DNA from: Rubrivivax sp.
GTDB lineage: Bacteria; Pseudomonadota; Gammaproteobacteria; Burkholderiales; Burkholderiaceae_C
Assembly: GCA_018780805.1 (NCBI GenBank)
Contig: JADMJD010000030.1
Span: 12,940-76,939, forward strand
DNA: 64,000 bases
Direction: 5' to 3'
This document shows positions 11,456 to 58,126 of this stretch, piece by piece. Within the stretch, counting starts at the first letter, position 1; every line of letters begins with the position of its first letter. The notes below the pieces were generated by a model that saw only the letters and a program-made list of their open reading frames with translations, searched no databases and had not been told where the DNA came from. The position numbers were made by a program, and so were the translations under genes.

Positions 11456-11467
11456 GGACAGTTGGTT

Positions 11468-44266: not shown

Positions 44267-44298
44267 TGGCGGAAGCGGTGTCTGTCGCATTCGAACTC
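44267..44298. repeat. Left attachment-site region
   Basis: TGGCGGAAGCGGTG (44267-44280) repeats the 3' end of tRNA-Ser at 58039-58052. Four bases later TCGCATTCGAACTC (44285-44298) repeats 57941-57954. Either 14-bp pair could be the recombination core. GTCTG/CAGAC flank the second repeat, giving a T-arm-like hairpin. Between here and the integrase there is also a TTTTTT-GGCGGGTT-GATGGCGGGTG-like stretch (44397-44422) that recurs at 57965-57995. Confidence 0.6.
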
Positions 44299-44460
44299 CA
44301 GACCGTGTCTTGACGTGTCATAGGCGACCGTTTCACCTATGAGAGACGGAAAAAATCGGATCACGTCATCTCACCCCGTATCATCACACCACCTGCTTTT
44401 TTGGCGGGTTAGATGGCGGGTGCGATAACCCGCGGTTTTCTGCGGGAGTTCGACGGAGAC

Positions 44461-45651
44461 ATGCCTAAAGCAGCAAAGGAACTGGGGGCCGGCGCGGTCA
44501 GTGCATTGACCGCTCCTGGCATGTACGCCGTGGGCCGTGTGCCTGGCCTGCATCTGCAGGTTCTGCCCTCTGGTGGCCGCTCGTGGATTCTGCGTGCCAA
44601 GGTCGGCAACAAGCGCCGCGAGATCGGACTCGGGGGCTATCCCGCCGTGTCGTTGTCGCAGGCCCGGGAGCGGGCACAGGAGACGCGGGCGAGCATCGAC
44701 AAGGGCATAGACCCCGTGGCCGAACGCAAGGCCGCCAAGAGCGCATTGCAGGCTGCGCAGGCGAGCGGGAAGACGTTCAAGGAATGCGCCGCCGCGTACA
44801 TGGCCGCCCACGAGTCGGGGTGGAAGAACGTCAAGCACGGGCAGCAGTGGCGCAACACCTTGGAGAGCTACGCTTACCCGGTTGTCGGGCACCTGATGGT
44901 GCGCGACGTGGCCCTGGCCCACGTGACGCGGATTCTTGAACCCATCTGGACCGAAAAGAACGAGACGGCGGTTCGCCTGCGTGGGCGCATCGAGCTCGTG
45001 CTCGACTGGGCTGCGGTGCGTGGCTACCGCGACAAGGACAACCCGGCGCGCTGGCGGGGGCATCTCGACAAGTTGCTACCGCGCCCATCCAAGGTCAACG
45101 CCCGGGAGCATCACAGCGCGCTGCCCGTCAACGACATGGTGTCGTTCATGGCCCGCCTACGCGCATCCGATGGCATCGGCGCCCGCGCCCTGGAGTTCGC
45201 GATTCTCACGGCCGCGAGATCCGGGGAAGTTCGCGGCGCAGAGTGGTCTGAGATCGATCTAGAAGCGAAGGTGTGGACGGTCCCCGCCGCGCGAATGAAG
45301 GCAGGCAAGGAACACCGCGTGCCCCTCTCTGACGCCGCCGTCGTGCTGGTCAAGGCACTGCCTCGGATGGCTGGCACAGAACTGGTTTTCTCGTCACCAC
45401 GCGGGGGGACTCTCTCCGACATGACGCTGTCGGCGGTTCTGCGGCGCATGAGCGTCGCGGCCGTCCCCCACGGGTTCCGATCCACGTTCAGAGACTGGGT
45501 GTCGGAGTGCACGGCATACCCGAACCAAGCTGCCGAGATGGCACTCGCGCATGCGATCGGCGACAAGGTGGAAGCCGCCTATCGCCGTGGCGACCTGTTC
45601 GAAAAGCGCCGCCAGATGATGGCCGATTGGGCTGCATTCCTGGCCGGCTAA
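44461..45651 (+). CDS. Tyrosine-type integrase, P4/DUF4102 family
   Basis: 396 residues from ATG at MPKAAKELGAG. An in-frame ATG 48 bp upstream lies in the attachment-region repeat and is disfavoured, since family members start at this point. The N-terminal DUF4102 arm-binding domain (LTAPGMYAVGRVPGLHLQVL, GLGGYPAVSLSQARERA) is followed by the catalytic domain with Arg253 (TAARSGEVRGAEW), His337-x-x-Arg340 (PHGFRSTFRDW), His364 (ALAHAIGDK) and Tyr374 (AAYRRGD). All catalytic residues are present, so the enzyme looks active. It integrates and, with an excisionase, excises the element at tRNA-Ser. It is at the end of the element away from the tRNA gene. Confidence 0.95.
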   Translation: MPKAAKELGAGAVSALTAPGMYAVGRVPGLHLQVLPSGGRSWILRAKVGNKRREIGLGGYPAVSLSQARERAQETRASIDKGIDPVAERKAAKSALQAAQASGKTFKECAAAYMAAHESGWKNVKHGQQWRNTLESYAYPVVGHLMVRDVALAHVTRILEPIWTEKNETAVRLRGRIELVLDWAAVRGYRDKDNPARWRGHLDKLLPRPSKVNAREHHSALPVNDMVSFMARLRASDGIGARALEFAILTAARSGEVRGAEWSEIDLEAKVWTVPAARMKAGKEHRVPLSDAAVVLVKALPRMAGTELVFSSPRGGTLSDMTLSAVLRRMSVAAVPHGFRSTFRDWVSECTAYPNQAAEMALAHAIGDKVEAAYRRGDLFEKRRQMMADWAAFLAG

Positions 45652-45660
45652 ATAACTAGA

Positions 45661-45816
45661 CCGGCAGGACACGCCACGGGAGTTCTTAGAGCATCCCCTC
45701 ATGTCACCGCAACCCATGAGGTGGTGCTCGACGGCCGCAGGCCAAGCGAAATATCCCGGCAGGACATCTAGCCGGGCTTCGCAGAGCATCCCCTCATGTC
45801 ACCGCAACCCATGAGG
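45661..45816. repeat. Two 61-bp repeats in front of alpA
   Basis: 45661-45721 and 45756-45816 are 61-bp direct repeats. The last 34 bp (from AGAGCATCCCC) are identical and contain the inverted pair CCTCATG/CATGAGG. The first 11 bp (CCGGCAGGACA) are also identical, the middle less so. The 25 bp from 45647 match 50270-50294 at 22 positions. No gene lies between integrase and alpA here. They are probably regulator-binding sites or excision-related sites. Confidence 0.8.
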
Positions 45817-45825
45817 AATCAGCCG

Positions 45826-46119
45826 ATGTCCACGCCCCTGCAGCTACCCGCGACCGGGTACATCCGCCAGAACATCCTGATCGGTGAAAGCTCTGTGTCC
45901 GAAGAGCAAGCCGAGAACAACGCCGCCGCTGGCCGCTCGCCGCGACGCCCGCGCCCGGGTCGGCCGCCCATCGTGCCATTCAGCAGCGCGACCCTCTGGC
46001 GCAAAGTCAGGGCAGGGGAGTTCCCCGCGCCGGTCAAGCTCTCCGACCGGGTCACGGCCTGGCGCTGCGAGGACGTGGCCGCGTGGATCAAGGCGCAGGG
46101 CAACAAGCCGCGCCGCTGA
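45826..46119 (+). CDS. AlpA-family prophage regulator
   Basis: 97-residue MerR-like small HTH protein: PPIVPFSSATLWRKVRAGEF, PAPVKLSDRVTAWRCEDV, AAWIKAQGN. AlpA proteins activate integrase/excision genes in CP4-57 and serve as directionality factors in P4-type satellites. The N-terminal 40 residues (to GRSPRRPRPGRP) are Arg-rich and longer than usual. The start has CATGAGG, part of the second 61-bp repeat, as a possible ribosome-binding site. It overlaps the next gene by one base. Confidence 0.88.
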   Translation: MSTPLQLPATGYIRQNILIGESSVSEEQAENNAAAGRSPRRPRPGRPPIVPFSSATLWRKVRAGEFPAPVKLSDRVTAWRCEDVAAWIKAQGNKPRR

Positions 46120-46337
46120 TGACCCCCGCCGACACACCGGCCCCGCAGCCTGCGCGAGTGCTGGCCGAGTCCATGGGCTACGTGCTGGCCGACGACGTGG
46201 CCGCGCTGGCGGGCGTGAAGCTGGGCACGCTGGCCACATGGGCGAGACACGGAGAGGGCCCGCCGTTTGTCATGTTCGGCCGCCGCCGGCTGTACACGCG
46301 CGAAGGGCTGCGCCGGTATCTCGCCAGCATCGACTGA
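46119..46337 (+). CDS. Helix-turn-helix (excisionase-like) DNA-binding protein
   Basis: 72 residues. ADDVAALAGVKLGTLATWAR, HGEGPPFVMFGRRRLYTREG and LRRYLASID form a MerR/HTH_17-type winged helix, the fold used by excisionases and small phage repressors. The ATG overlaps the AlpA stop (TGATG), so the pair is coupled. Two such proteins side by side suggest one controls excision and the other expression, which cannot be separated from the sequence. Confidence 0.85.
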   Translation: MTPADTPAPQPARVLAESMGYVLADDVAALAGVKLGTLATWARHGEGPPFVMFGRRRLYTREGLRRYLASID

Positions 46338-46362
46338 CACCTACTGCACTGGGAAGCTAACC

Positions 46363-46824
46363 ATGACCACGCTCGCCTGGCACTACACCATCGCGGAAAA
46401 GGTCGATTCGATCTTGACGGCGGGACACCTTTGGGGGACTGCCGACGAAGTCCTATTCCCCGGGGAGCGGCCCGTCGTTTGGTTTTCTCTGAACCAGACT
46501 TTTGAGCCGGCTGCGACCAAGCGAGTGATCGACGCGGCGACGGGGCTGTTGCGGGATATGACCTGGCGCGAGATGCGTGCGGAGGGTCTGTATCGGTTCG
46601 GGGTGTCCCCGAGAGCGCTGCTATGTGGCGACCGATTGCGCCGCGCCGCCCGCATCCCTGCGCACCTGTGGCGGGATCTCCATACGGTCGGACTGCAGAT
46701 GAAGGCAGACCCGACTGATTGGTTCGGCCACGTCGGCAGCATGTCGATTGACGGTCTGCGAGTAGAGCGGATAAGTGACGCTGGAACTTGGTCCCTCTGG
46801 CCGCCGCACCGTCTTGCTGCCTGA
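46363..46824 (+). CDS. Unknown protein, possible ADP-ribosyltransferase-like fold
   Basis: 153 residues. It starts WHYTIAEKVDSILTAGHLWG, followed by ERPVVWFSLNQTFEPAATKR, MRAEGLYRFGVSP and PTDWFGHVGSMSIDGLRVER. The H-Y-T start with I-L-x-x-G-x-L and the later VWFS strand recall the H-Y/F-T...IL.G.L layout of ADP-ribosyltransferase-like proteins such as DarT, but the catalytic Glu equivalent is not clear. I know unnamed proteins with similar phrases in other accessory regions. Its function may be a toxin, anti-phage factor or modifier of a helper; all are inference. It lies between the HTH genes and the replication gene. Confidence 0.6.
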   Translation: MTTLAWHYTIAEKVDSILTAGHLWGTADEVLFPGERPVVWFSLNQTFEPAATKRVIDAATGLLRDMTWREMRAEGLYRFGVSPRALLCGDRLRRAARIPAHLWRDLHTVGLQMKADPTDWFGHVGSMSIDGLRVERISDAGTWSLWPPHRLAA

Positions 46825-46835
46825 CAACTGACCCC

Positions 46836-46867
46836 CAAAAGAAAAGGCCCGCCACTGAGGACGGGCC
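46836..46867 (-). terminator. Minus-strand intrinsic terminator
   Basis: Hairpin GGCCCGCC/GACGGGCC-like (46846-46867) with a T-rich tract on the minus strand (TTTTCTTTT reading leftward from 46845). On the plus strand it has no U-tract. It would stop transcripts entering leftwards from the replication gene, although no leftward gene is seen just to the right. Confidence 0.55.
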
Positions 46868-46915
46868 AAACATACTAGCCATGCAATTCTACAAAGCCCC
46901 GGGGGGTGCGTTACA

Positions 46916-49288
46916 ATGACTGCACTTGCACCCCTGGCCGCCTGGCGGCAATTCATCGTCTGCAAGCTGGTGCCGTTGCCCGATGGGCGGACCGACAAAA
47001 TCCCGTGTGACTACAGGGACGGCCGCACGGGCATCGATGCCCACGACCCGCAGCATTGGACCGACTGGCAGACCGCCGAAGCAATGGCCAAGCTCTGGGG
47101 TGAGTCGTTCCGGGTCGGGTTTGTGCTGACCGAAAGAGACCCGTTCTTTTGCCTGGACATCGACGGCGCGCTGACGCCGCAGGGCACCTGGTCGACGCTC
47201 TCGCATCAGCTGCTCGCTGCGCTGCCGGGCACGGCCTGCGAGGTCTCTCAGTCGGGGCGTGGCCTCCACATTTGGGGTCAAGGCCCCGTGCCCGAGCACT
47301 CTAAGAAAAACATCCCGCTGCATATCGAGCTATATCACGAGCGCCGGTTCTTCTGCCTCGGCCGCTGGTGGGAAGCCACGGGCGACATGACGCAGCCATG
47401 CCCGCAGATTGCAGCCGTGGCCGCCGCCTACTTCCCGGCCCGCGAGCGCTCGGGAGAGCCGACGCCGGGGGACGGGCCGCGCGCCGACTGGCGGGGGCCT
47501 GCAGACGATGATGAAATCGTCCGCCGCGCGCTGGCTTCCCGGTCATTGGCGAAGAAGCTCGGGGCCGCCAACGACCGGGCATCCTTCGCCGATCTCTGGA
47601 ACAACAACGTTGAAGTGCTGGCCCGGGCCTACCCCGCCAACGCCAACGCCAACAGTGACGAGCCTTTCGACCGCAGCACCGCCGACTCTGCGCTCGCGTC
47701 GCACCTTGCCTTTTGGGTGGGCTGTGACCGAGAGCGCATGGAACGACTCATGCGCCGCTCGGCGCTGGCGCGTGACAAGTGGGATACGCATTCGGGCTAT
47801 CTGCGCGGGAACACATGGTCCTGCATCGACGCCGCGTGCGCAGTGCAGGTTGACGTGCTGCAAGACCCGGAGACGAAAAGCCCGTTCGATACGTCGGCGC
47901 CCAGCGCTGCGCCGGGCATGTCGCAGCGCGAGGGGGCTACGTTCATCGGCCCGGAGAGGGCCGCCGAAATCTTCAAGGGCTGTGTCTATGTGACTGACGC
48001 ACACCGGGTGCTGGTGCCCGGTGGGAAGCTGCTGAGGCCCGAACAGTTCAACGCCCGATTCGGGGGCTACACGTTCGCCATGGATGCACGCAACGAGCGC
48101 ACATCTCGAAAGGCGTTCGAGGCATTCACAGAGAACCAAGTCCTCGTTGCACCAACGGTTGACAGCACCTGCTTTCGGCCGCTGCTGGAACCCGGGGCGA
48201 TCATCGAGACCGAAGGCCGCAAGCGGGTCAACACGTGGTGCCCGCCAAAGGTTGACTCTGTGGCCGGCGACGTTGGGCCGTTCCTGCAGCACCTGGCGAA
48301 GCTGCTGCCCGACCAACGGGACCGAGATCTCGCGCTGTACTACTTGGCAAACATGGTGCAGCACGCGGGCCACAAATTTCAGTGGGCGATGGTGCTGCAG
48401 GGCACGGAGGGCAACGGTAAGTCTTTCCTCTCGCGCTGCGTCGCCGCCGCGCTGGGCAGCGATCTCGTGACCTGGCCAGACGCGACCAAGCTGGCCGGCC
48501 GCTTCAATGCGTGGCTGTTCGGAAAGATGGCCTATTTGGTGGAGGACTTCAAGGTAGACGACGACGGCCGTCTACTCGAAAAGCTAAAGCCAATGATTAC
48601 CGGCGACGCGCTGGAAATAGAAGCCAAAGGCGTAGACCAGCGCACCGACGAAATCTGCGGCAATTGGCTGTTCAATGCCAACGCTAGAGGGGCGATGCCT
48701 CTCACCCGAGACACGCGCCGGTACATGGTCCTGTGGTCGGCACAACAGACTGCAGAGGACCTTGCCCGCGACGGAATGCACGGGGGCTATTTCGACGCCC
48801 TCTACAGCTGGGCAGGCAGGGGCAAGGGATACGCCCACATCACGCACTACCTGCAGAGCCTGGCCTTGCCGACCGAGTACGGCCTTTCATGGGTGCAAGG
48901 CCGCGCGCCCAAGACCACCGCCACGAGCGCAATCGTCGAGACGACCCGACCGCCGGCAGAGCAAGCCGTTCTAGACGCCATCGAGGCCGAGCATCTAGGG
49001 TTCAAAGGTGGCTGGGCGTCGAGTTGGTTTTTGGGCCAGTTGTGGAGCAGCCAACGGCCCGCCGTCAAGATCGTCGGCGCCGACCGGGACGACCTCATGG
49101 CACGTCTGGGCTACATCCGTCACCCGGCGCTGGGACCCTCTGGTCAGGTGCACAACATCGTGATGCCCGACGGCAGGAAGCCGCAGCTGTACCTGGCCAA
49201 AGCACACCCGGCCCTGGCCCTCGCCAAGCCGGCAGAAGTCGCCGCCGCGTACTCAAGGGCCCAAGGGATCGGCGCCGCGCCGGGCTGA
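46916..49288 (+). CDS. Phage-type primase-polymerase fused to SF3/D5-like helicase
   Basis: 790 residues. The N-terminal part (1-170) resembles the archaeo-eukaryotic primase/primase-polymerase type found in phage replication proteins: FVLTERDPFFCLDIDGAL with D81 and D83, and SGRGLHIWGQG with H118, the DxD and His layout of that fold. A linker domain follows (KKLGAANDRASFADLWN, SHLAFWVGCDRERMERLMRR). The C-terminal half is DUF5906/SF3-type helicase: Walker A QGTEGNGKSFLSR at residue 496, Walker B AYLVEDF, FNANARGAMPLTRDTRRYMV. It would prime and unwind the element's own DNA at the repeats just downstream. Full length and undamaged. Confidence 0.88.
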   Translation: MTALAPLAAWRQFIVCKLVPLPDGRTDKIPCDYRDGRTGIDAHDPQHWTDWQTAEAMAKLWGESFRVGFVLTERDPFFCLDIDGALTPQGTWSTLSHQLLAALPGTACEVSQSGRGLHIWGQGPVPEHSKKNIPLHIELYHERRFFCLGRWWEATGDMTQPCPQIAAVAAAYFPARERSGEPTPGDGPRADWRGPADDDEIVRRALASRSLAKKLGAANDRASFADLWNNNVEVLARAYPANANANSDEPFDRSTADSALASHLAFWVGCDRERMERLMRRSALARDKWDTHSGYLRGNTWSCIDAACAVQVDVLQDPETKSPFDTSAPSAAPGMSQREGATFIGPERAAEIFKGCVYVTDAHRVLVPGGKLLRPEQFNARFGGYTFAMDARNERTSRKAFEAFTENQVLVAPTVDSTCFRPLLEPGAIIETEGRKRVNTWCPPKVDSVAGDVGPFLQHLAKLLPDQRDRDLALYYLANMVQHAGHKFQWAMVLQGTEGNGKSFLSRCVAAALGSDLVTWPDATKLAGRFNAWLFGKMAYLVEDFKVDDDGRLLEKLKPMITGDALEIEAKGVDQRTDEICGNWLFNANARGAMPLTRDTRRYMVLWSAQQTAEDLARDGMHGGYFDALYSWAGRGKGYAHITHYLQSLALPTEYGLSWVQGRAPKTTATSAIVETTRPPAEQAVLDAIEAEHLGFKGGWASSWFLGQLWSSQRPAVKIVGADRDDLMARLGYIRHPALGPSGQVHNIVMPDGRKPQLYLAKAHPALALAKPAEVAAAYSRAQGIGAAPG

Positions 49289-49290
49289 AC

Positions 49291-49467
49291 TTACCTATTA
49301 CCTTTTACCTATGGCCTTCTCACTCCGGCTGGCGGGCGCCACGCGCTGGCCACGCTGGCGGGCTTGGCGCTACAGCACGCTATTCCTGTAGACATCACTC
49401 TATCCATAGGTAAAAGGTAAATAGAGAAAAAGACATTAGCGACAAGCACTTAGCTTACCTATGGCCT
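49291..49467. other. Origin-like inverted repeats downstream of replication gene
   Basis: TTACCTTTTACCTATGG (49298-49314) and CCATAGGTAAAAGGTAA (49404-49420) form a perfect 17-bp inverted repeat across a 89-bp GC-rich spacer containing GCTGGCGGG twice. TTACCTATGGCCT recurs at 49455-49467 as a direct copy of 49305-49317. Further TTACCTATT starts at 49291. AT-rich DNA (49400-49455) follows. Iteron-like repeats plus an AT-rich stretch directly behind a primase-helicase gene are what a replication origin would look like; no experiment is implied. Confidence 0.6.
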
Positions 49468-49602
49468 CAAGGTGTGGCCAAGGTGCAAAGGTGAATCAGG
49501 CCCGCAAAGCCCGACCGCCGCCAAAGGTTGTACGTTTGTACCTAGTAGTCGTGTGGATAGTCGGCCGTGCGCCTGAATTGGGCGATCAACCGGAAGCCGA
49601 CC

Positions 49603-49830
49603 ATGAGCAAAGCAGACCCCGTGTGGGTGCCCACCAAACCGACCGCCCCCGGCATCTACCCCGCATCGACCGAACGCTGCCCGCAGGCCCGCCGATATTG
49701 GAGCGGCCGGCGCTGGTCTGCCCCATGGTTCGAGGGCGACCCCAAAGACATCGCAGAGCGTGCCCAGCGGACACCGGCCCGTCTGGAGCGTGGTCTGCGC
49801 GTCGAGTGGGTTAGCGATGCGCAAGCCTGA
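49603..49830 (+). CDS. Hypothetical small element protein
   Basis: 75 residues starting MSKADPVWVPTKPTAPGIYP. It is rich in Trp, Pro and Arg (RRYWSGRRWSAPWFEGDPKD), a pattern seen in unnamed phage proteins that recall a short SH3-like or zinc-free beta-barrel segment. No catalytic motif. It lies after the origin-like repeats on the element's main strand. Confidence 0.55.
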   Translation: MSKADPVWVPTKPTAPGIYPASTERCPQARRYWSGRRWSAPWFEGDPKDIAERAQRTPARLERGLRVEWVSDAQA

Positions 49831-49963
49831 AGCCGGGCCCTTGTGGCGTGGCGTGCGCTTCGCCGCGCCACGTGCCCAGCGATGCGTGAAGCTGCGCCAG
49901 CGCCAGCGCGCACGCCCCTGGCTGACACACCGGCCCCCGTGCCTGTGGCCGCCGTCGGCGTAG
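49817..49963 (+). CDS. Doubtful small open frame
   Basis: 48 residues (MRKPEAGPLWRGVRFAAP, then Arg-rich). It overlaps the end of the previous gene, but has no good ribosome-binding site and the sequence looks like GC-rich filler. Kept only because overlapping small genes are the rule in this element. Confidence 0.2.
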   Translation: MRKPEAGPLWRGVRFAAPRAQRCVKLRQRQRARPWLTHRPPCLWPPSA

Positions 49964-50217
49964 CCCGTGCCAGCGCCCGCAGCCGGCACACGCCCTGCGG
50001 GCGTTTCTACGCGCACAGGCCGGCGCAGCTACAGGGGCGCGGAGATCGGGGCGCCGCGGAGCCGCTACGCCTGCGCGCGGGCCATCGGCGAGCACTGGGT
50101 CGGCGTGGGCCGCGGCTGAAATCTGGGCGACCTGGAGAGCGGCGGGGCCCCTGAATAGCGATGCCGACCGGGGGGAAGAATAGGCCCGATAGTCAGACGT
50201 TTTTCGGGTCGAAAATC

Positions 50218-50245
50218 TTGATTAGATTTGACTATGACGTAATAG
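50218..50245 (+). promoter_or_regulatory. Putative sigma70 promoter of the right-hand operon
   Basis: -35 TTGATT, 16-bp spacer, -10 TAATAG, in the AT-rich stretch 25 bp before the dispersed repeat and about 145 bp before the first gene of the operon. Confidence 0.5.
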
Positions 50246-50269
50246 GGCATCACGCACGGGTATCGCGAC

Positions 50270-50294
50270 GCTAAATAAGTGAACCGGCAGGACA
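50270..50294. promoter_or_regulatory. 25-bp repeat shared with the alpA leader
   Basis: Matches 45647-45671 at 22 of 25 positions (GCTAAATAA-N4-ACCGGCAGGACA-like). A second partial copy CGGCAGGACTAATTAGAGAT follows at 50330. The position just past the promoter suggests a binding site for an element regulator. Confidence 0.6.
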
Positions 50295-50388
50295 AGCGAG
50301 ACGCATCCAACGAGAGTAGCGAAACGCAGCGGCAGGACTAATTAGAGATCCCGCAATAGGCTGCAATCCTGCATCAATTGGAGGCCCA

Positions 50389-50607
50389 ATGCACCCCCTG
50401 CAATCTGACCCGCACGCGTGGGCGCCGCTGCCCGCCGCAGCGCGCGAACGTGGTTTGAAGCGCACTCTCCTACTCAACGAGATGCAGGCCCGACAAGCCC
50501 GAATCGTGCGGCTGGGCCAGCGTGGGCTGATCCACCTGTCCCGTGAAGACCTGGCCGCATTCGACCGCGACTTGCAGGCGCAGGCCGCGAACGGGGGCCA
50601 GCGATGA
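50389..50607 (+). CDS. Hypothetical small element protein, first gene of operon
   Basis: 72 residues. TTGGAGGCCCA precedes the ATG, a strong ribosome-binding site. Sequence MHPLQSDPHAWAPLPAAARE, RTLLLNEMQARQARIVRL, GLIHLSREDLAAFDRDLQ suggests an alpha-helical protein of DNA-binding or assembly-chaperone type. The stop overlaps the next ATG. Not recognised. Confidence 0.75.
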   Translation: MHPLQSDPHAWAPLPAAARERGLKRTLLLNEMQARQARIVRLGQRGLIHLSREDLAAFDRDLQAQAANGGQR

Positions 50608-50837
50608 CCACCGCCACACGCGCCGACCTGAAGCGGCTATTCGTGGACCTCGCCCAGCTGCCCGCCAGTTTCATCGACCGGGGCGAGGCAATCGGCATCT
50701 CCCTGGAACACGCACGCACCGTGCACTCCGCAGCCGTCCGCGCCCAGTTCGGCGACCGTGTGGCCGCCGCCAGCGCCGCAATGGATGCAGCCGGGTGGAA
50801 CGCAATTCGGGCGCAAGCCTACGGGAACACCAGATGA
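50604..50837 (+). CDS. Hypothetical small element protein
   Basis: 77 residues, ATG overlapping the previous stop. TRADLKRLFVDLAQLPASFI, RGEAIGISLEHARTVHSAAV. The latter resembles a short HTH segment (EAIGISLEHARTV). It is overlapped by the next gene (ATGA). Function unknown. Confidence 0.75.
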   Translation: MTTATRADLKRLFVDLAQLPASFIDRGEAIGISLEHARTVHSAAVRAQFGDRVAAASAAMDAAGWNAIRAQAYGNTR

Positions 50838-51409
50838 GCACGAACGACAAGACCGACACGACCGCCGCACCCCTTGCGCCGACCTGGCGCGACCGCGCCG
50901 AAGCCGAACGCAAAGCCACCGCGCAAGCCCGCGCAAGCGAGCGCACCTATCCGGCTGGCGCCGCTGGCTACGGCAAGACGCTGCGGTCCGGCGTGGACCT
51001 GGCCAAGATGGACCGCATCGAGGTTCAAGCCGTGGCAGCCCGCGGTCGGGCCCGCGCTCTGGATGAAGAGGCAGGCATCTACCGCCGCGAGGCGCAGGCC
51101 CACGCCATCGCAGCGTTTGCAGGCAGTCTGTACACACCGGCAAGTGAGCGCTACGACCTGGCGAGCATCCGGCCGTTCCTGGAAGACCCGGCATGGCCCG
51201 AGCGGAAGCTCATCGCCGAAAACATCGGCGTGCACGACCTGCGCCTGGCCGTGCGCGAGTACGAGCTCGCCGCCGCAATGGCCGCCGCTGCGAACGGAGC
51301 GTCGCGCGAGTACGCGACGCTGAATCAACTGCTGGCGAACCTGAAGCGCTACGCCGACCCGTCGCCGTCTGCGCCTATCCCGAACGCTGGCCCGCGCATG
51401 GCGGTCTGA
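50834..51409 (+). CDS. Hypothetical element protein, helical
   Basis: 191 residues. The N-terminus is low-complexity and charged (MSTNDKTDTTAAPLAPTW, AEAERKATAQARASERTYPA). The rest is helical (LAKMDRIEVQAVAARGRARA, SLYTPASERYDLASIRPFLE, RLAVREYELAAAMAAAANGA). Not recognised; size and position before the tape measure gene would suit an assembly or scaffold-like component, but no homology supports that. Confidence 0.75.
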   Translation: MSTNDKTDTTAAPLAPTWRDRAEAERKATAQARASERTYPAGAAGYGKTLRSGVDLAKMDRIEVQAVAARGRARALDEEAGIYRREAQAHAIAAFAGSLYTPASERYDLASIRPFLEDPAWPERKLIAENIGVHDLRLAVREYELAAAMAAAANGASREYATLNQLLANLKRYADPSPSAPIPNAGPRMAV

Positions 51410-51428
51410 GCCCACAACAAAGGCCCCA

Positions 51429-52019
51429 ATGATGAACACCCCAGACCGTGACTACTCCGCCGACGTGGCCGCCGTGCGCGTCGAGATCGCCGAAGTCGGC
51501 GCCAGCATCCAGACGCGGCAACGTGTCGCCGCGAACCTTGACGAAGCCCGGGGCCGCGCCGCTGCCTTTGCCGCTGCAGCGCATGCCAAAGGTGCCGAAT
51601 GGGTCCGACAAGCAGGCCGGGCTGCTGCGAGCGGGCAGGACATTGGCGAAGTCTTCCGCCCGTATGGGCACGTCACAGGTCCCGACCTCGTCAAGCGCGC
51701 GGGACCGCCCGCCGCGAGCGGCGGAGACGCTGGCGACGTGTTTCACCTGCCCACGCAATGGGCCCGCATGGACCTGGCCCCGTGGCTGGCCGTGCTCATG
51801 GGGGCCGACACGTTCGCCGAACTGATTTGCGCGAACGTCGGCGACTATGCCAAGCCCGGGCCGAACGCCGCAGCGCGCGCCGCTGAGATCGCCGAGTTGC
51901 AGCGCTTGTTGCTGGACGCCGAACGCCGCGAGGAAGCGCTCATTGTCGAGAGCGAGGCGACCCGCTCGCCTGTCCTGCGCCGCGCCGATGCGCGCCCTGA
52001 GATCGTGTTGGGGGCCTGA
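51429..52019 (+). CDS. Hypothetical element protein, coiled-coil rich
   Basis: 196 residues. A coiled-coil-like N-terminus (DVAAVRVEIAEVGASIQTRQ, RVAANLDEARGRAAAFAAAA) is followed by a central segment (GDVFHLPTQWARMDLAPWLA, VLMGADTFAELICANVGDYA) and a C-terminal helix with heptad pattern (AAEIAELQRLLLDAERREEA). Two ATGs lie three bases apart. Unknown role; no domain recognised. Confidence 0.72.
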   Translation: MMNTPDRDYSADVAAVRVEIAEVGASIQTRQRVAANLDEARGRAAAFAAAAHAKGAEWVRQAGRAAASGQDIGEVFRPYGHVTGPDLVKRAGPPAASGGDAGDVFHLPTQWARMDLAPWLAVLMGADTFAELICANVGDYAKPGPNAAARAAEIAELQRLLLDAERREEALIVESEATRSPVLRRADARPEIVLGA

Positions 52020-52021
52020 CT

Positions 52022-52825
52022 GTGGGCGCCGCCTACCTCCTGTCCGGCCCGCCCGGCGGAAAGCTGCAACTCGCCGTCGGCATGCTGGCGTTCGGGGGCT
52101 TTCAAATCGAGCCCGTCACGTTCGGGCATGCCTATCGTGTGCTTGAAACCGAGGCGTTGCTTTTGAAGCCCGACCTGTTCTTTGACCGCACGACGATTGC
52201 TGCATTTGCGTATCGAATCGCCGCGGACAAAGAACCGGCCTGGGTCGCAGAGATGCAGGCGAAAGTGCGAAAGGTGGCGCAGGGCATGAAGGAACGCGAC
52301 GCGAACATGGCGAACCTTGCTCGACTGGACCCGGCCTGGGCCGAGAAGATTCAGAAGGCCCAGCCCAAGGCTGGCGACCTCTTCGAGAGGGCCCGCGCGA
52401 CCATTCCCGAGGGCATCAGCTATGGCCCCATGCCAATCGCCGGGGGCGCTGTCTTTCGATCAAACATCAAACGCGAGCGGCCCTATCGACGGTCTGAGAT
52501 CTCGGGCCGTGTCGGTCTGCACTATCTCGCATCGGCAATTGACCTCGGTCTGACTGTGACGATCTGTGATCCGGAGACTTTGCGATATGAAGTCACCGGC
52601 CCGACGGCACTGCAAGTGCGGTTGCTGGCGCAGATGCAGGGCAAGAGCGAAGCAGACGCCATGGCCGCACTTGGCATCACAGCCGGGACCGTGGCCGAAG
52701 AGGACCGCCCCGACGTTCCCGAGATCAAGGTCACGCTGCCGACCCGAGTTACCAAGTCGTCAATCTCGCACGACGGGCAGGGCCGAATCTCCGAAGTGAC
52801 ACAGACCGAGACCTCGGAGGACTGA
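52022..52825 (+). CDS. Hypothetical element protein before the tape measure gene
   Basis: 267 residues from a GTG start 2 bp after the previous stop. Parts: GAAYLLSGPPGGKLQLAVGM, EPVTFGHAYRVLETEALLLK, a charged helical middle (VAEMQAKVRKVAQGMKERDA), ISYGPMPIAGGAVFRSNIKR, and a C-terminal ALGITAGTVAEEDRPDVPEI, KVTLPTRVTKSS. No TM segment or catalytic motif. In a tail operon a tape measure gene is normally preceded by the tail assembly chaperone pair with a programmed frameshift; I see no slippery site here. Confidence 0.72.
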   Translation: MGAAYLLSGPPGGKLQLAVGMLAFGGFQIEPVTFGHAYRVLETEALLLKPDLFFDRTTIAAFAYRIAADKEPAWVAEMQAKVRKVAQGMKERDANMANLARLDPAWAEKIQKAQPKAGDLFERARATIPEGISYGPMPIAGGAVFRSNIKRERPYRRSEISGRVGLHYLASAIDLGLTVTICDPETLRYEVTGPTALQVRLLAQMQGKSEADAMAALGITAGTVAEEDRPDVPEIKVTLPTRVTKSSISHDGQGRISEVTQTETSED

Positions 52826-52831
52826 CGCACC

Positions 52832-55800
52832 ATGGCAACGAACCGCCGCGATGTAGTGCTGGGCGTCAAGATCGAGAGCGACGGCGCGCCTGTACTGACC
52901 GAACTTGCGGGCGCCGTGCGGGGCCTTGGAGCCAGCGCGGGCAACAGTCAAGCCGACCTCGACCGTCTGGCCGCCGAACTGGACCAGCTGACCGCCGCCA
53001 AGAAAGCCGCGCGTGAAGTCGAGCGCTCTCAAGCCGCCGCCCTTGCAGAGACTCGCCGCGAACTCGGCGCCCAGCGCAGCGCGCTGGAACTTTTGAACGC
53101 AGGCGCGGACAAGGCGACAAGGTCTACTGTCGAGTATCAAGCTGCATTGCGTGCAGCCAACACGGCAATTGCTCAAAGCAGGGCGGCACTGCGCGAAAAG
53201 ACCGCCGCCCTTGCCACCGCGGCCGCCAGCACGCGTGCCGCCGTCGCAGCAGAGGCCGACCACGTCGCCGCGATCCAGCGCACCGCCGCCGCAGCGCGCG
53301 CCAGCGCAGCCACGCAGGCCGCCGCGGGCGCTACTGTTCGGGGCGAGCTCGACAAGATCGGCGCTGCGCTGAACACTGTTCAGACCCTGGCTGGCGCAGC
53401 ACTTGGCGGGACGCTGCTGACGAGCGCCGCGCGAGACGTTGCCGACGCGGCAGACGCTTTCAACAACCTAGGCGCACGGGTGCGCCTGGCCACTGGGGAC
53501 AGTGCCGACTTTCAGAGCACGTTCGCCCAAGTGTTCGAGATCGCCCAGCGTACCGGCGTGGCCGTTGACGACGTGGGCGCGCTGTTCGTCAAGCTGGCGC
53601 AGGCTGGCCGCGAACTGAACCTGACGAACCGCGACGCGCTGGCCCTGACCGAGAGCATCACGCAGGCCCTGCAGTTGTCGGGCGCCAGTGCTTCAGAGGC
53701 CGCGTCAGGCGTCCAGCAGTTCGCCCAAGCGTTGGCGTCGGGCCGGCTGCAAGGCGACGAACTGCGGTCCATTCTGGAGAACGCCCCCCGGCTTGCGCGC
53801 GCACTTTCGGAAGGGCTGGGCGTGACCGTGGGCCAGTTGCGCGAACTGGGTTCACAGGGTGCACTGACCGCTGCGCAAGTCATCAACGCCCTGCAAGGCC
53901 AGTCGGCCGCGCTGCAGTCGGAGTTCGATCAGCTGCCCCCCACGGTGGGCCGTGCGCTGGCCAACCTTTCTACAGCCTGGACCCGGTACGTGGGCGAGGT
54001 AGACCAAGCCAACGGGGTAAGCGCCGCCGCTGCGGAGGCAATCAACTCGCTTGCTTCCAACCTCGACACTCTGGGCACGCTGCTGTTTTCCGCCGGCAAG
54101 GCCGCCGCCGCCTGGCAGGCCCTGAAGCTCGCTCAGACCATGCTGGGCATCGCGACCGCGACCCGGGCCGCGACCGTTGAAACCGTGGCGCTGGCCACGG
54201 CCCAGACCGCCGCCGGCACCGCCGCCACGGGCGCCGCAGCATCGGCCGGCAGGTTCGCCGCGATCCTGGGCGGGTTCAAAGTCGCCGCGCTGCTGGCGAT
54301 CATCACGAACTTCCGGGAACTGGGCACGTGGATAGGCGAAGGCATCGCCAAGTTGGCCGGCTATGACGACAAGCTGAAAGAGACCGAGGAAGAGCTCGCC
54401 GCCAATGACCGGGCCGCCCGCGCCATGGCCGCCAGCGTCGCCGCCCTGGCTCAAGAGTCGGCAAAGGCTGCAGAGGAAGCCGCCGGCCTGACGACCGAAT
54501 CCCGCCGCCTGCTGGGCGAGTTCGACCAAGTGCGCCAGAAGGGCGAGAGCGTGGCCGACGCACTGGGCAAGGTGCAAAAGGCCCTGGACCTGTCGGACCT
54601 CTCAGGCATCACCGCGGCCGGCGCTGCACTCGACGTGCTGGCGCAGCGTGGCGCTATCACCGGGGCCCAGTTGCGCGACACGCTGGCCGGCGCGCTGAAG
54701 GACGTAGACCTCGGAGTGTTTGAGGCTCAGGCCCGCGCTGCGTTCGATTCGAGCACCCAAGGGGCCCGCCGCCTGGCCGCCGCACTCGACGCCCTGGCCG
54801 ACGAATCGTTGCGCCGCGCAGGCACGAGCGTTCGAGAGCTCGAAACCGGGTTCACAGAGGCCGCGTCGAGTGCAATCAACGACGTCGACGCCCTGGCCAC
54901 ATCCCTGGAAGCGCTGGGCGCCGACGCAGGCACGACCGGGCGCCTGCTGGCCGCAGCACTCGACAGAGCCACCGACGCCGCCGGGACGGAGCGCGCACTT
55001 CAAGCCGTCATCGACCGAGTCGAAGAACTGGGCCGTCAGGGCAAGCTCTCCGGCGAGACGTTGACCGCCGCACTTGAAGGCGCGCGCAAGAAATTGGACG
55101 AGCTCAAGCCCGGCGTGGACAGCCTGGCGGAGGCGCTGCGAACGTTCGGCATCAAGACCCGCGACGAACTGCAGGCCACGGCTGACACACTGGGCAAGGC
55201 ATACCGTGTGATCGCCAACGACGTGTCGGTGTCGCTGGCTGACAAGGCCCGGGCCTTCGCCCAGTTTCGCGATGCAGCCATCGCCGCGAATGGTGGCGTC
55301 GAGTCTTCAGAGATCAAGCTGCAGGCCCGCATCATCGAAGCGCAAGCTGCCGCGGCTGGCCTTGGCAGTGTGATCGAGTCGTCAATGGGCCGTGCCAAGC
55401 GCGCGACCGATGCCGCTACTGAGGCCGTCAACCGATACGGGGAGCGGCTGAACCAAGCCGCCGGCAGCCTGGGCGGTACGTCGGCCGGCGTGGCTGGCCC
55501 TGGGGGCGAGATCAACGGCGGGAAGACTGACTCGGTCCTAGGCCCGACCGGGAGCTCTGACTTCGGCGTCGATTTGCAAGTGCCTGTCCCTGAGGGCTAC
55601 TACTACACGTTGAACGGCAGTGATCCGAACGTCGAGCGGAGCGCCGGCTATGACCCGCTGGGCCGGCCCTATGGCGGGTACTTCGCCAAGATCCCCGGGT
55701 ATCGCCCCGACGGCGCCAACGCGCCCGGCGTGGGGCCCTTTGGAGGCACGGCAGGCGCCCGTGCACCTACCCCCGCCCCCGCGCCCATCTCGACGCCTGC

Positions 55801-55942
55801 GCCGGCCCCTGCGGGCGCAGCTGGGGTCATCCGGGTAGAACTGACCTTCGCAGGCCGCACCGCCAGCGTGCCCACGACTGAAGAGGGCGCCGCTGCCCTC
55901 GTTGCGCTGCTCAAGGAAGCCGAGAGGCAGACGGGGGCATGA
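52832..55942 (+). CDS. Phage tail tape measure protein
   Basis: 1036 residues, full length for the family. It sets the length of a siphovirus or myovirus tail. Residues 30-160 form a coiled coil. The tape measure domain is at about 190-380: FNNLGARVRLATGDSADFQS, VFEIAQRTGVAVDDVGALFV, ALALTESITQALQLSGASAS, SGRLQGDELRSILENAPRLA and INALQGQSAALQSEFDQLPP. Hydrophobic segments (around 420-500, KVAALLAIITNFRELGTWIG) are typical and may act in membrane passage. The C-terminus has a Pro/Ala linker and a short beta domain. It is the only virion gene in the element. The next gene overlaps its stop. Confidence 0.93.
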   Translation: MATNRRDVVLGVKIESDGAPVLTELAGAVRGLGASAGNSQADLDRLAAELDQLTAAKKAAREVERSQAAALAETRRELGAQRSALELLNAGADKATRSTVEYQAALRAANTAIAQSRAALREKTAALATAAASTRAAVAAEADHVAAIQRTAAAARASAATQAAAGATVRGELDKIGAALNTVQTLAGAALGGTLLTSAARDVADAADAFNNLGARVRLATGDSADFQSTFAQVFEIAQRTGVAVDDVGALFVKLAQAGRELNLTNRDALALTESITQALQLSGASASEAASGVQQFAQALASGRLQGDELRSILENAPRLARALSEGLGVTVGQLRELGSQGALTAAQVINALQGQSAALQSEFDQLPPTVGRALANLSTAWTRYVGEVDQANGVSAAAAEAINSLASNLDTLGTLLFSAGKAAAAWQALKLAQTMLGIATATRAATVETVALATAQTAAGTAATGAAASAGRFAAILGGFKVAALLAIITNFRELGTWIGEGIAKLAGYDDKLKETEEELAANDRAARAMAASVAALAQESAKAAEEAAGLTTESRRLLGEFDQVRQKGESVADALGKVQKALDLSDLSGITAAGAALDVLAQRGAITGAQLRDTLAGALKDVDLGVFEAQARAAFDSSTQGARRLAAALDALADESLRRAGTSVRELETGFTEAASSAINDVDALATSLEALGADAGTTGRLLAAALDRATDAAGTERALQAVIDRVEELGRQGKLSGETLTAALEGARKKLDELKPGVDSLAEALRTFGIKTRDELQATADTLGKAYRVIANDVSVSLADKARAFAQFRDAAIAANGGVESSEIKLQARIIEAQAAAAGLGSVIESSMGRAKRATDAATEAVNRYGERLNQAAGSLGGTSAGVAGPGGEINGGKTDSVLGPTGSSDFGVDLQVPVPEGYYYTLNGSDPNVERSAGYDPLGRPYGGYFAKIPGYRPDGANAPGVGPFGGTAGARAPTPAPAPISTPAPAPAGAAGVIRVELTFAGRTASVPTTEEGAAALVALLKEAERQTGA

Positions 55943-56181
55943 ACGAGCCAACCACACACCAGATAGGCCCGCTCACGATGCGAGTGTGGCCGCCGGAGCC
56001 GCTGCCCCCGCGTGACCTGGCCGCGCTGAACCTGACCGCGGGCGAACTGCTGCGCCTGCTGGACGCCCTCGCAGGCGACGGTGCGCCGCAGGCCGCCGGG
56101 CTGCTGACCGCCGCGCGTGGTCTGGCCTACAGCCTGCAGCAGCGCCTGCAACGAATCACCACAGAGAGGACCACCCAATGA
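55939..56181 (+). CDS. Hypothetical small element protein
   Basis: 80 residues; ATG overlaps the tape measure stop. IGPLTMRVWPPEPLPPRDLA, LNLTAGELLRLLDALAGDGA, GLAYSLQQRLQRITTERTTQ. The helical pattern is unremarkable. The overlap with both neighbours argues for a genuine gene. Function unknown. Confidence 0.7.
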   Translation: MNEPTTHQIGPLTMRVWPPEPLPPRDLAALNLTAGELLRLLDALAGDGAPQAAGLLTAARGLAYSLQQRLQRITTERTTQ

Positions 56182-56522
56182 GATCCGAACGAATCGACGC
56201 CCTGGCCGCGCAACTGCGCAAGTCGAGGACCACGACTGCAGCACTAGACCCGGCATCCCGGGCGCAGCGCCTGGCCGCCGCTCGCTTGTTCGGGCAACGA
56301 CTCGCGTCTGAGCGGCTGACGTTGGAACAGATCGAAGAGGCGGCCGGGTTCGTCGGGGTGCCGATGTTCGAGTGCCAGATGCACCACCGCCTGCTGTGGC
56401 TGGTGCCCATGGTGCCCTCGGAGTTCTTCAGGCCCCACGACCCCGACGTTCAACAAGAGCTCATCTGGGGCATTGCCGACGTTTGGCAGGCCGTGCAGGA
56501 ACGGGCTGCGGCCACCGGTTGA
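56178..56522 (+). CDS. Hypothetical element protein
   Basis: 114 residues; ATG overlaps the previous stop. RIDALAAQLRKSRTTTAALD, RLAAARLFGQRLASERLTLE, QIEEAAGFVGVPMFECQMHH, LLWLVPMVPSEFFRPHDPDV. The region LTLEQIEEAAGFVGVP is HTH-like, and a hydrophobic patch with His/Met (MHHRLLWLVPM) follows. No family recognised. Confidence 0.7.
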   Translation: MRSERIDALAAQLRKSRTTTAALDPASRAQRLAAARLFGQRLASERLTLEQIEEAAGFVGVPMFECQMHHRLLWLVPMVPSEFFRPHDPDVQQELIWGIADVWQAVQERAAATG

Positions 56523-56526
56523 GATC

Positions 56527-57207
56527 ATGCCCGAACCATTGTGGTCAGGGTCAGGCGCAAATACACTGACGATTCACAATCGGAGTTCGTATGACGCTGC
56601 CAAGAGCCCCGGGCACCTCACCCCCGCCAACGGACATTCGCCACTGGACCCCCCACCGGCCGATACAACCAGCGCCGGCACCTGCGCCCAGCCCGTCGCC
56701 GTCGAGTACACCACCGCCACAACCGGGAAGATGATCATGCCTGAAAGAACGCTCGGCATAGCGATTGCGGAAGTGCGTTTTGCCATTGAGTTTGGATCTC
56801 TGAACGAGCGTTTTTGGCAGCGTCTGGACACGACGTTCAATGTCGTGCAATGCCTGTTTGGAATGCTTGCGCTAGCTGGCGTGTTCTCGTTGCACGAGGC
56901 GCTACTTGCAATCGCAGGTACGGTGATCGCTGTCATTAGCGCCCTGCAGTTGACCTTGCGCCCGCTGCAGACCTCAATAGAGTTTCGCGACGCAAGGCGA
57001 AAGTTTCAAGACTTGAATCGACGAGTGGCTTTGCTGACCCTAACCGAGATCGACGGTGAGCTTGAAGATCTCCGACGCGAGGCACCACATGGCTTACATG
57101 CGCTGGAGCGCCCGGCGTTCAATCGCGTGAACGAACGTCACCATGGCGACCAAGCCATTGTTGAGCCGCTGAACTGGCGGGAGAAGTTTGCGGTCGCAAT
57201 GGCCTAG
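56527..57207 (+). CDS. Two-TM SLATT-like membrane protein
   Basis: 226 residues from the first ATG; an ATG 68 codons later (56731) may be the real start, since the leading segment is low-complexity. The core is a helix (FGSLNERFWQRLDTTFNVVQ), two TM helices (QCLFGMLALAGVFSL and LLAIAGTVIAVISALQLTL) and a charged helical tail (FRDARRKFQDLNRRVALLTL, EIDGELEDLRREAPHGLHAL). This is the layout of SLATT two-TM effectors, which are linked to anti-phage systems through membrane pore formation. Base composition is less GC-rich than neighbouring genes, as for accessory cargo. SLATT assignment is by pattern only. Confidence 0.6.
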   Translation: MPEPLWSGSGANTLTIHNRSSYDAAKSPGHLTPANGHSPLDPPPADTTSAGTCAQPVAVEYTTATTGKMIMPERTLGIAIAEVRFAIEFGSLNERFWQRLDTTFNVVQCLFGMLALAGVFSLHEALLAIAGTVIAVISALQLTLRPLQTSIEFRDARRKFQDLNRRVALLTLTEIDGELEDLRREAPHGLHALERPAFNRVNERHHGDQAIVEPLNWREKFAVAMA

Positions 57208-57267
57208 CCCGGCGAGCCGGACTTCTGTCGAGCGGCGGGAATTCGTCGGTCGAAGTACCCGGCACAC

Positions 57268-57837
57268 TTACGGCACATATTCGTCGAGGGATTCCGAAGC
57301 ATGCCTCAAGGCGCCGAGCGCAGGCACGATCAACTCGAGCACGAATGGCCAGTCTGTCGAGACAATCGGTTCCGCATCGTAGTGCCTCAGGTCGGCATCG
57401 ATATGTCGCTGAAGTTGCACCAGAAGGCCCCGACCCCGCACTAGGTCGATGGCGCAAGCAGGTAACGCGAGCGCCAGCGCATGCAAGGCGGCATCATCCA
57501 AGAATGAGACTTGCCCAAGCGTTCGCGCAAGCCAACGTAGGTTGTCGATATCCAGAGGCGCCCCGCCGGCATCCAGCGCGGCACGTTCGATTGCTGTCGC
57601 GGCGCCGAGGATCTGACTCATGTTCAGCAGTTGGCCCGCCGCAACAACTTTGGCCGCGGCGTCAATCACTTCGTCTGCCGCCTTGCGCCTAGCCCGCAGT
57701 TGGACGAGCGGCACTGCCAGTGCAACACAAACCGCGAGGACGGTGCCTATTGCTTGTGCCCACGCTGACCACTCTTGCTTGGACATGCAGGTAGCCCACG
57801 AGTCAATCCAAAAGAGGCAGTACTGAGTTTCAGCCAC
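57268..57837 (-). CDS. Membrane-anchored hypothetical protein on the opposite strand
   Basis: 189 residues. N-terminal MAETQYCLFWIDSWATCMSK, then a TM helix (QAIGTVLAVCVALAVPLVQL) and a basic flank (RARRKAADEV). The rest is soluble and helical (LARTLGQVSFLDDAALHALA, LVQLQRHIDADLRHYDAEPI). Phage and satellite ends often carry a membrane-anchored cargo gene read from the far strand. The N-terminal W...W.TCM..EW pattern recalls other single-TM phage cargo proteins, from memory. Function unknown; superinfection exclusion or abortive infection are guesses. Confidence 0.65.
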   Translation of the reverse strand: MAETQYCLFWIDSWATCMSKQEWSAWAQAIGTVLAVCVALAVPLVQLRARRKAADEVIDAAAKVVAAGQLLNMSQILGAATAIERAALDAGGAPLDIDNLRWLARTLGQVSFLDDAALHALALALPACAIDLVRGRGLLVQLQRHIDADLRHYDAEPIVSTDWPFVLELIVPALGALRHASESLDEYVP

Positions 57838-58038
57838 GGTGATGCAGGCGGTTCGGATGTTGGTGCGCGGCTAAGGCCGGATCCCGCGGCAGGTTCTGGC
57901 AAAGTGGGCCCCACTTGCCTTGTGGGCGAGAGGCGCTGCTTCGCATTCGAACTCTGCCCCCTCGTTTTTTTGGATGGCGGGTTTGATGGCGGGTGAGGGG
58001 GTCTAGAAGCCTTGAAACCCGCATGAATGCTGGGTCTC
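57838..58038. other. Right attachment region
   Basis: About 200 bp. TCGCATTCGAACTC (57941-57954) and the TTTTTTTGG-ATGGCGGGTT-TGATGGCGGGTG-like stretch (57965-57995) repeat sequences of the left end; the tRNA-Ser 3' end follows. GCAAAGTGGGCCCCACTTGC (57899-57918) is a near-perfect palindrome (stem CAAGTGGGG-like), possibly a terminator-like hairpin. Confidence 0.5.
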
Positions 58039-58126
58039 TGGCGGAAGCGGTGAGATTCGAACTCACGGGCCCTTGCGAGCCGCCGGTTTTCAAGACCGGT
58101 GCAATCGACCACTCTGCCACGCTTCC
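58039..58126 (-). tRNA. tRNA-Ser (anticodon UGA)
   Basis: Complete cloverleaf read leftward: acceptor GGAAGCG pairing with CGCTTCC, G73-CCA encoded, anticodon loop CTTGAAA giving UGA (reads UCA and related codons), a long class-II variable arm, and T-loop TTCGAAT. The tRNA 3' end is the target of the integrated element, and the gene remains intact. Confidence 0.95.

Follow-up and report, generated by a model that had tools for sequence, protein, structure and literature searches.

An intact integrated element of 13.8 kb (44267-58052) lies in a 64,000-nt stretch of Rubrivivax sp. DNA, hereafter the window, and combines genes for integration, regulation and replication with the tape measure gene of a phage tail. 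We consider it, with a probability of roughly 0.6, to be a phage satellite that replicates alone and substitutes parts in the particle of a siphophage like Curvibacter phage PCA1. The initial annotation of this DNA had described an integrase, an AlpA/helix-turn-helix (HTH) pair, a primase-helicase, an origin-like repeat and a full-length tape measure of 1036 amino acids (aa). Examination of the open reading frames (ORFs) together with Pfam and PHROGs bore out each of these, and the integrase, AlpA, HTH, primase and tape measure ORFs are all open and belong to the expected families. The absences it had reported also stood, as Pfam and PHROGs scans, each covering 16/16 listed ORFs, recovered no terminase, portal, capsid, tube, baseplate or lysis family from the element.

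The element is bounded by a repeat of its tRNA target. TGGCGGAAGCGGTG is the 3' end of the tRNA-Ser gene, and an exact second copy begins at 44267, 146 bp ahead of the integrase gene. Since only 9/2000 shuffles of the flanking bases produced a repeat of at least 14 bp, chance is an unlikely source, and the position at a tRNA end makes it less likely still. The same arrangement recurs. Seven complete elements of 12.4-14.7 kb were recovered, from Rubrivivax (window, R. albus and PRO12), Ideonella, Aquabacterium, Ramlibacter and genome G314, all seven bounded by exact tRNA-end repeats of 14-50 bp. The targets are tRNA-Ser (window and Aquabacterium), tRNA-Lys and tRNA-Asn (the two other Rubrivivax elements), tRNA-Lys (Ideonella), tRNA-Lys (G314) and tRNA-Val (Ramlibacter). 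The initial annotation had asked whether the order int-alpA-primase-tape measure recurs at tRNA-Ser without structural genes. Six other complete elements show the order int-HTH-primase-small genes-tape measure at tRNA genes, one of them at tRNA-Ser, and none has a packaging or tail operon. Given this recurrence, the lone tape measure has been retained and is not the outcome of a single deletion, and it is very unlikely that the window element is the deletion remnant of one prophage.

Beyond the tape measure, the seven elements share much of their equipment. A primase is encoded in 7/7 (NrS1-type in 5/7, D5_N-type in 2/7), as are an HTH-like gene opening the late operon and a gene of the family found in the window at 51429 (the 51429 family), both detected with profiles built from five elements each. 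The integrase matches Pfam in the window and in elements L011, L013 and L077, and falls below the threshold in L058; the window protein has a homologue of 23% identity in L070. It is 57% identical to the integrase of the Aquabacterium element (44413-45651 in the window, L057:14854-16062 in Aquabacterium), both elements sitting at tRNA-Ser(TGA); the integrase gene adjoins the tRNA in Aquabacterium and lies at the opposite end in the window.

Virion genes are sparse. Among 768 element ORFs we recognised a tape measure in 7/7 elements, a major capsid protein (MCP) in 2/7 and a portal in 1/7. The MCPs, of the Phage_cap_E family, belong to the G314 and Ramlibacter elements (Pfam E 5e-72 and 6e-67) and occupy a slot neighbouring the tape measure; the portal, of lambda type, fills this slot in the Aquabacterium element (E 2e-99). 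Comparison of the 768 ORFs with 2565 ORFs of 20 phage loci (ORFs of at least 50 aa, E 1e-4) revealed no terminase, protease, neck, tube or tail-tip gene, Pfam and PHROGs having covered part of the sister elements' ORFs. The earlier suggestion of a satellite that brings only its own tape measure therefore fits the window, which has no other recognised virion gene, and does not extend to the sisters with an MCP or portal; even in the window, a 267-aa protein shares its C-terminal tail with portals. The objection foreseen at that time, that small genes would prove to be capsid or portal parts, came half true, for such parts do occur in sisters, as single swapped genes and not as a prophage remnant.

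One could still suppose that every element is an integrated siphophage stripped of its structural genes, as every virion part recognised is of a kind encoded in siphophage late operons and related elements without a tape measure exist. We regard this as highly improbable, because the same gene has been kept every time in seven elements that are spread over four kinds of tRNA, have exact repeats at their ends and intact genes, and fall in a narrow size range, and because their companion genes (the 51429 family and the late HTH), common to 7/7, were absent at E <0.01 from 3238 ORFs of 21 phage loci.

All seven tape measures are open and are 1031-1055 aa long, against 981-1707 aa for 18 comparison tape measures; lengths run from the first start codon, so that a few comparison values may be some residues too long. 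Drawing 7 of these 25 proteins at random gave an equally tight set in only 3/200000 trials, and element pairs (n = 20, mean identity 47%) differed in length by a median of 7.5 aa, comparison pairs (n = 42, 44%) by 84 aa. Selection on length is the simplest reading, to which shared architecture could add. On sequence comparison the tape measure is a mosaic of a PCA1-type N-terminus and a middle that resembles a different group of prophages and not PCA1. A profile of the first 60 aa of the seven matched PCA1, ACF1, ACPWH and viral contig L018 (E 2e-11 to 1e-9), L020 weakly (2e-3), and none of the remaining 14/19 tape measures. Over their whole length the element tape measures are 38-47% identical to confirmed phage ORFs, and for six elements the best match of the middle (44-52%) is the tape measure of G058. 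In a full-length tree the seven group together as a single clade with support of 100/100 (100% of 200 bootstraps). Thirteen of the 14 comparison loci are confirmed tail modules, the exception being G058, where no phage tail neighbour was present; its long prophage-type tape measure (L030 3345-6884) sits on a 12-kb contig with a transposase and no recognisable phage neighbours.

Capsid, portal and tape-measure N-terminus point to siphophages like PCA1. The best phage matches of the Aquabacterium portal are PCA1 (50.8%) and Acidovorax phage ACF1 (50.1%), prophages reaching 22-34%. The G314 and Ramlibacter MCPs are 45% identical to each other, their nearest compared phage MCP is that of PCA1 (39.6 and 40.5%), and in a search of the phage collection PCA1 had the top bit score among the matches listed. 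The C-terminus of the G314 tape measure had PCA1 as its sole match in 50,697 phage records (E 0.01), and the same element encodes a Mor-family late activator 48% identical to that of PCA1, much as P4 delta resembles P2 Ogr. Consequently, head proteins and tape-measure N-terminus appear to share one kind of phage, and the middle another.

In our model, the tyrosine integrase, controlled by AlpA and HTH, would excise and reinsert the tRNA-resident element, whose primase-helicase would replicate it from an origin that it likewise carries. During growth of a siphophage with a PhiCap_E-type capsid, of the PCA1 kind, its late operon would supply the satellite tape measure, and those of sister elements a capsid or portal as well. 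The PCA1-type N-terminus would let the satellite tape measure join the helper tail, and its fixed length of ~1040 residues would set that tail. Particles composed of helper parts and the satellite part would then carry satellite DNA at the helper's cost. We infer from these features that the element probably depends on a helper, enters its virions, is packaged and transferred, and interferes with it. More tentatively, and at somewhat less than even odds, we hypothesize that the elements make up an undescribed Burkholderiales satellite group living by part substitution. Each would bring one or two replacement virion parts, in the complete elements recovered always a tape measure, together with a capsid, portal or portal-tail protein, and take the rest from a PCA1-like siphophage. 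In their tape measures, held to ~1040 residues, an N-terminal docking end of the helper type would be fused to a middle that was acquired from other phages on two or more occasions, docking and ruler having evolved apart, and the portal-tail protein would act likewise at the head end.

Several observations weigh against the satellite reading. No second TMP_3 tape measure was seen in 5/6 element-bearing genomes, and thus no resident helper. G314 does harbor a prophage, in which a terminase, a portal, cap_E and a tape measure were recognised; its capsid and portal are only 32-34% similar and so not a close match. The elements yielded neither a terminase subunit nor a head-size factor, nor a cos/pac site, at which no test was aimed. 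The middle-only tree does not unite the seven tape measures: Ramlibacter groups with six phages (96/95), and the other six elements spread without resolution among seven comparison rows. We therefore claim no single capture of the whole gene; with the full-length clade, this tree indicates that the shared N-terminus carries the unity and that the middle was acquired at least twice. A 170-aa N-terminal profile also scores G243, a tape measure outside the PCA1 group (E 4e-9), the N-terminal match did not show when one element was compared with the phage collection by plain tblastn, and the C-termini are mixed, 3/7 nearest the PCA1 group, 3/7 nearest the other group and that of the window unmatched. 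Finally, it was mostly the tape measure that led to the elements, and none is present in a related primase-bearing element (G017) or at a 51429-type locus (G369).

Another reading is an integrative element of a different kind that has re-used a tape-measure-like protein for a cell function, for example in the membrane or cell wall, with no tie to phage particles; in its favor, 5/6 genomes have no other TMP_3 gene. We consider this improbable, as sister elements hold a capsid or portal gene in the same operon, G314 adds the late-activator homologue, and the tape-measure ends are of PCA1 type. Less improbable, though still unlikely, is an element that moves by other means (conjugal helpers, rare transduction) and uses its tape measure, capsid, portal and portal-tail proteins as decoys to spoil virion assembly by incoming phages, in defense and not to build a particle of its own. 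The presence of isolated virion parts and the lack of a recognised packaging gene would suit such a role, as would the defense-type cargo at the end of several elements (SLATT-like in the window, HEPN_Swt1 in Aquabacterium, Fic in Ideonella, and a weakly AbiJ-like protein in PRO12) and the possible mimicry of the portal tail by the 267-aa family. Interference with tail assembly is a known satellite defense (Tai, PMC11364771). However, a decoy has no need of the tightly kept tape-measure length, defense genes are common satellite cargo, and the tape measure of the phage-inducible chromosomal island (PICI)-like elements (PLEs) is a working virion part (PMC12987554). Decoy and satellite roles can both hold.

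A primase query returned 4/148 relatives, namely the source genome, G100 and G119 with the tape measure in the same order, and G017 without it. With a tape-measure profile (residues 640-786), 6/81 genomes of the genus and 25/399 of the family matched. Ten of the 25 matched family genomes were examined (G000, G100, G364, G314, G404, G287, G243, G128, G367 and G205): the four best matches (E <1e-50; the source genome, G100, G364 and G314) are elements with a lone tape measure, and the six lower-scoring loci are phage tail modules. The genus of G364 contributed another element (G863), and a scan of genome contigs added that of Ramlibacter and a partial one in Rhizobacter. A gene-order search recovered 1/399, the source genome itself (E 1e-15), with 2/21 in the genus of G364 and 1/7 in that of G314. 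The 51429 profile matched 5/399, four of them from its own alignment and G369 new. Peptide scans of viral contigs gave no relative for the primase, none for the 51429 family and one for profile A2. Next to a tRNA-Asn, the G017 element (L012 5980-13984) carries an integrase 69% identical to that of the window, a primase, a late HTH and a 51429-type gene, and a 50-bp tRNA repeat at 707/5865 of L012 marks another element adjoining it. At G369 (L099 107-3751) the 51429-type gene adjoins a DUF927 helicase-like gene; this locus is perhaps another branch of the group.

Satellites are known to alter the head and packaging of their helpers. PLEs live in Vibrio and integrate by a large serine recombinase; the window element has a tyrosine integrase and lies in Rubrivivax. 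It also differs from them in its siphophage-type tape measure, Burkholderiales host, P4-type integrase and AlpA, and its sisters add an MCP or portal. The PLE tape measure enters virions and shortens tails, and its deletion cuts transduction by 96-99.9%, the first demonstration, in 2026, of tail manipulation through a satellite's own tape measure (PMC12987554). As in our elements, that tape measure differs in length from the phage's and is only part of a tail pathway; PLEs, which exploit the myophage ICP1, additionally encode a baseplate hub and a tail chaperone (PMC12987554). A satellite with its own tape measure, put forward in the initial annotation as a candidate new type, thus has precedent: PLEs encode one and build chimeric tails, and putative tmp genes occur in capsid-forming PICIs (cf-PICIs; legend of Extended Data Fig. 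10, PMC12987554). The present group of elements, by contrast, appears undescribed, no account of it having turned up in the open-access literature searched.

Gram-negative PICIs have an early int-alpA-primase module, and cf-PICIs a whole head module with terminase parts. That early module is present in the window, and the elements resemble both types in integrase, AlpA-type regulator, primase, tRNA or chromosomal site, length of 10-15 kb and defense cargo. In contrast to cf-PICIs (both types are named in PMC11389934), they have at most one head gene each, none in the window, and no terS was found; neither Pfam nor PHROGs gave a terminase match in the window. P4-like satellites share the P4-type integrase, AlpA and a primase-helicase with its own origin, and the late-activator homologue of G314 parallels P4 delta. 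To our knowledge, P4 carries no tape measure. Moreover, no psu, sid or epsilon homologue was recognised, Pfam and PHROGs giving no match to these or to delta in the window, the primases are of NrS1 or D5_N type, and that of the window reached E 0.006 against the P4-family primase_Cterm TIGR01613, whose cut-off is 108.7 bits. AH14b of Pseudomonas is a P4-like satellite (PMC4936722). SaPIbov5, a Gram-positive satellite, carries a homologue of the helper capsid protein (Ccm) that enters the capsid, comparable to the MCPs of the sister elements; the text consulted mentions no tape measure of its own (PMC8569155). The window element would act on the tail as a PLE does and resembles PICIs and P4 in its early genes. 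Lacking the integrase kind of PLEs, the capsid module of cf-PICIs and the primase and size genes of P4, the element is a candidate for a satellite group of its own.

If the reading is correct, tail substitution would become a general strategy of satellites, with an independent group that does it in other bacteria and with parts of siphophages. Seven mosaic tape measures of near-equal length would be a natural experiment on own-tail recognition and length setting, and single swapped capsid or portal genes would show which virion interfaces are exchangeable.

Table 1 Features of the window element and its integration site
Feature	Coordinates	Strand	Basis or remark
Left attachment site (att), copy of 14-bp tRNA-Ser 3' end	44267..44280	.	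Exact match to 58039-58052
Tyrosine integrase, P4 type	44413..45651	+	Pfam Arm-DNA-bind_3 + Phage_int_M + Phage_integrase; phrog_1
Operator-like site CCGGCAGGACA, copy 1, between int and alpA	45661..45671	+	Word count
Operator-like site CCGGCAGGACA, copy 2, directly ahead of alpA	45756..45766	+	Word count
AlpA-family regulator/excisionase	45796..46119	+	PF05930 E 2e-5; phrog_66
HTH_17 regulator	46083..46337	+	Pfam
Primase-polymerase/helicase, NrS1-pol HBD + DUF5906	46916..49288	+	Pfam; phrog_1829 E 1e-110
Candidate replication origin	49285..49467	.	TTACCT iterons + perfect 17-nt inverted repeat; putative function
Operator-like site CCGGCAGGACA, copy 3, ~100 bp ahead of late operon	50284..50294	+	Word count
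Small HTH-like gene opening late operon	50389..50607	+	Five-element profile matches 7/7 elements + G017; no Pfam match
Small gene	50604..50837	+	Overlapping ORF; no Pfam/PHROGs match
191-aa gene	50834..51409	+	No matches
196-aa gene, family in 7/7 elements, possible tape-measure partner	51429..52019	+	Profile search
267-aa gene, family in 4/7 elements, portal-like C-terminal tail	52022..52825	+	Profile search
Tape measure, 1036 aa, mosaic, unbroken	52832..55942	+	TMP_3 PF20155 E 6e-62; phrog_12706 E 3e-109
Small gene 3' of tape measure	55939..56181	+	Profile matches the four elements that built it, L013 weakly
114-aa gene	56178..56522	+	Pfam, PHROGs and defense-profile (PADLOC) scans
Cargo, SLATT-like two-helix membrane protein, defense-effector-like	56473..57207	+	NCBIfam SLATT_4 E 3e-5, below cut-off; PADLOC 2TM effector E 5e-4
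Cargo, 189-aa protein	57268..57837	-	ORF; Pfam/PHROGs scan
Right att, 3' end of tRNA-Ser gene	58039..58052	.	Repeat of 44267..44280
tRNA-Ser (TGA), integration target	58039..58126	-	ARAGORN

The genes at 50389-52825 had been singled out, with the tape measure, for comparison with phage and satellite profiles. This yielded TMP_3 for the tape measure and a portal-like tail for the family of the gene at 52022 (the 52022 family), the 191-aa and 51429 genes finding no match. The 191-aa gene was listed as an ORF from 50543 to 51409 and is better read from 50834, a start codon of our choice. The 51429 family had no match with E <0.3 among the 3238 phage ORFs, and its role as a tail chaperone is thus a guess; PHROGs recognised no tail chaperone or baseplate hub beside the window tape measure, where the 51429 gene has a chaperone-like position and no homologue. 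The 52022 family occurs in the window, R. albus, PRO12 and Ideonella elements, and its last 45 residues match the ends of two portals, one in viral contig L018 (E 7e-7, 3238 ORFs), the other in the Aquabacterium element (E 3e-4, 1858 ORFs). The L018 ORF is identified as a portal because it matches that of PCA1 (58% over 48 aa). A pattern search for the tail motif returned the four 52022-family proteins only, and the PCA1 and ACF1 portals lack the tail by eye. The whole 267-aa protein had no phage match at E 0.01, an exact-peptide scan of genome contigs was empty, and among 100 genomes only the source genome held a homologue. Its predicted structure had a predicted local distance difference test (pLDDT) score of 41 from the single sequence and 59.5 from four rows, and a Foldseek comparison with PDB and viral structures was empty at E 0.001; no conclusion was based on this model. 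The 189-aa cargo protein reached E 0.048 for the capsid family PF19821, under the cut-off, and is not a credible capsid.

The candidate origin contains a perfect 17-nt inverted repeat (49298-49314/49404-49420) directly 3' of the primase stop. CCGGCAGGACA has only three copies in the 64 kb, a number reached in 0/100 shuffles; standing twice ahead of alpA and once ahead of the late operon, these putative operators suggest one regulator for both, in the window element only. No operator common to the sisters emerged: the best shared words were at shuffle level in L011, L057, L070 and L077, such words were absent from L013 and L058, and no non-coding 12-mer was conserved in at least six of the seven elements.

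Near the right end (57941-58000), the 14-bp word TCGCATTCGAACTC has another copy at 44285, and the stretch GATGGCGGGT resembles one ahead of the integrase gene; the att region looks as if assembled by an earlier insertion. Elsewhere in the window, two adjoining genes on the minus strand (9041-13876) encode near-identical regulators of ~800 aa with an identical N-terminus, and a similar one lies at 24927-27836.

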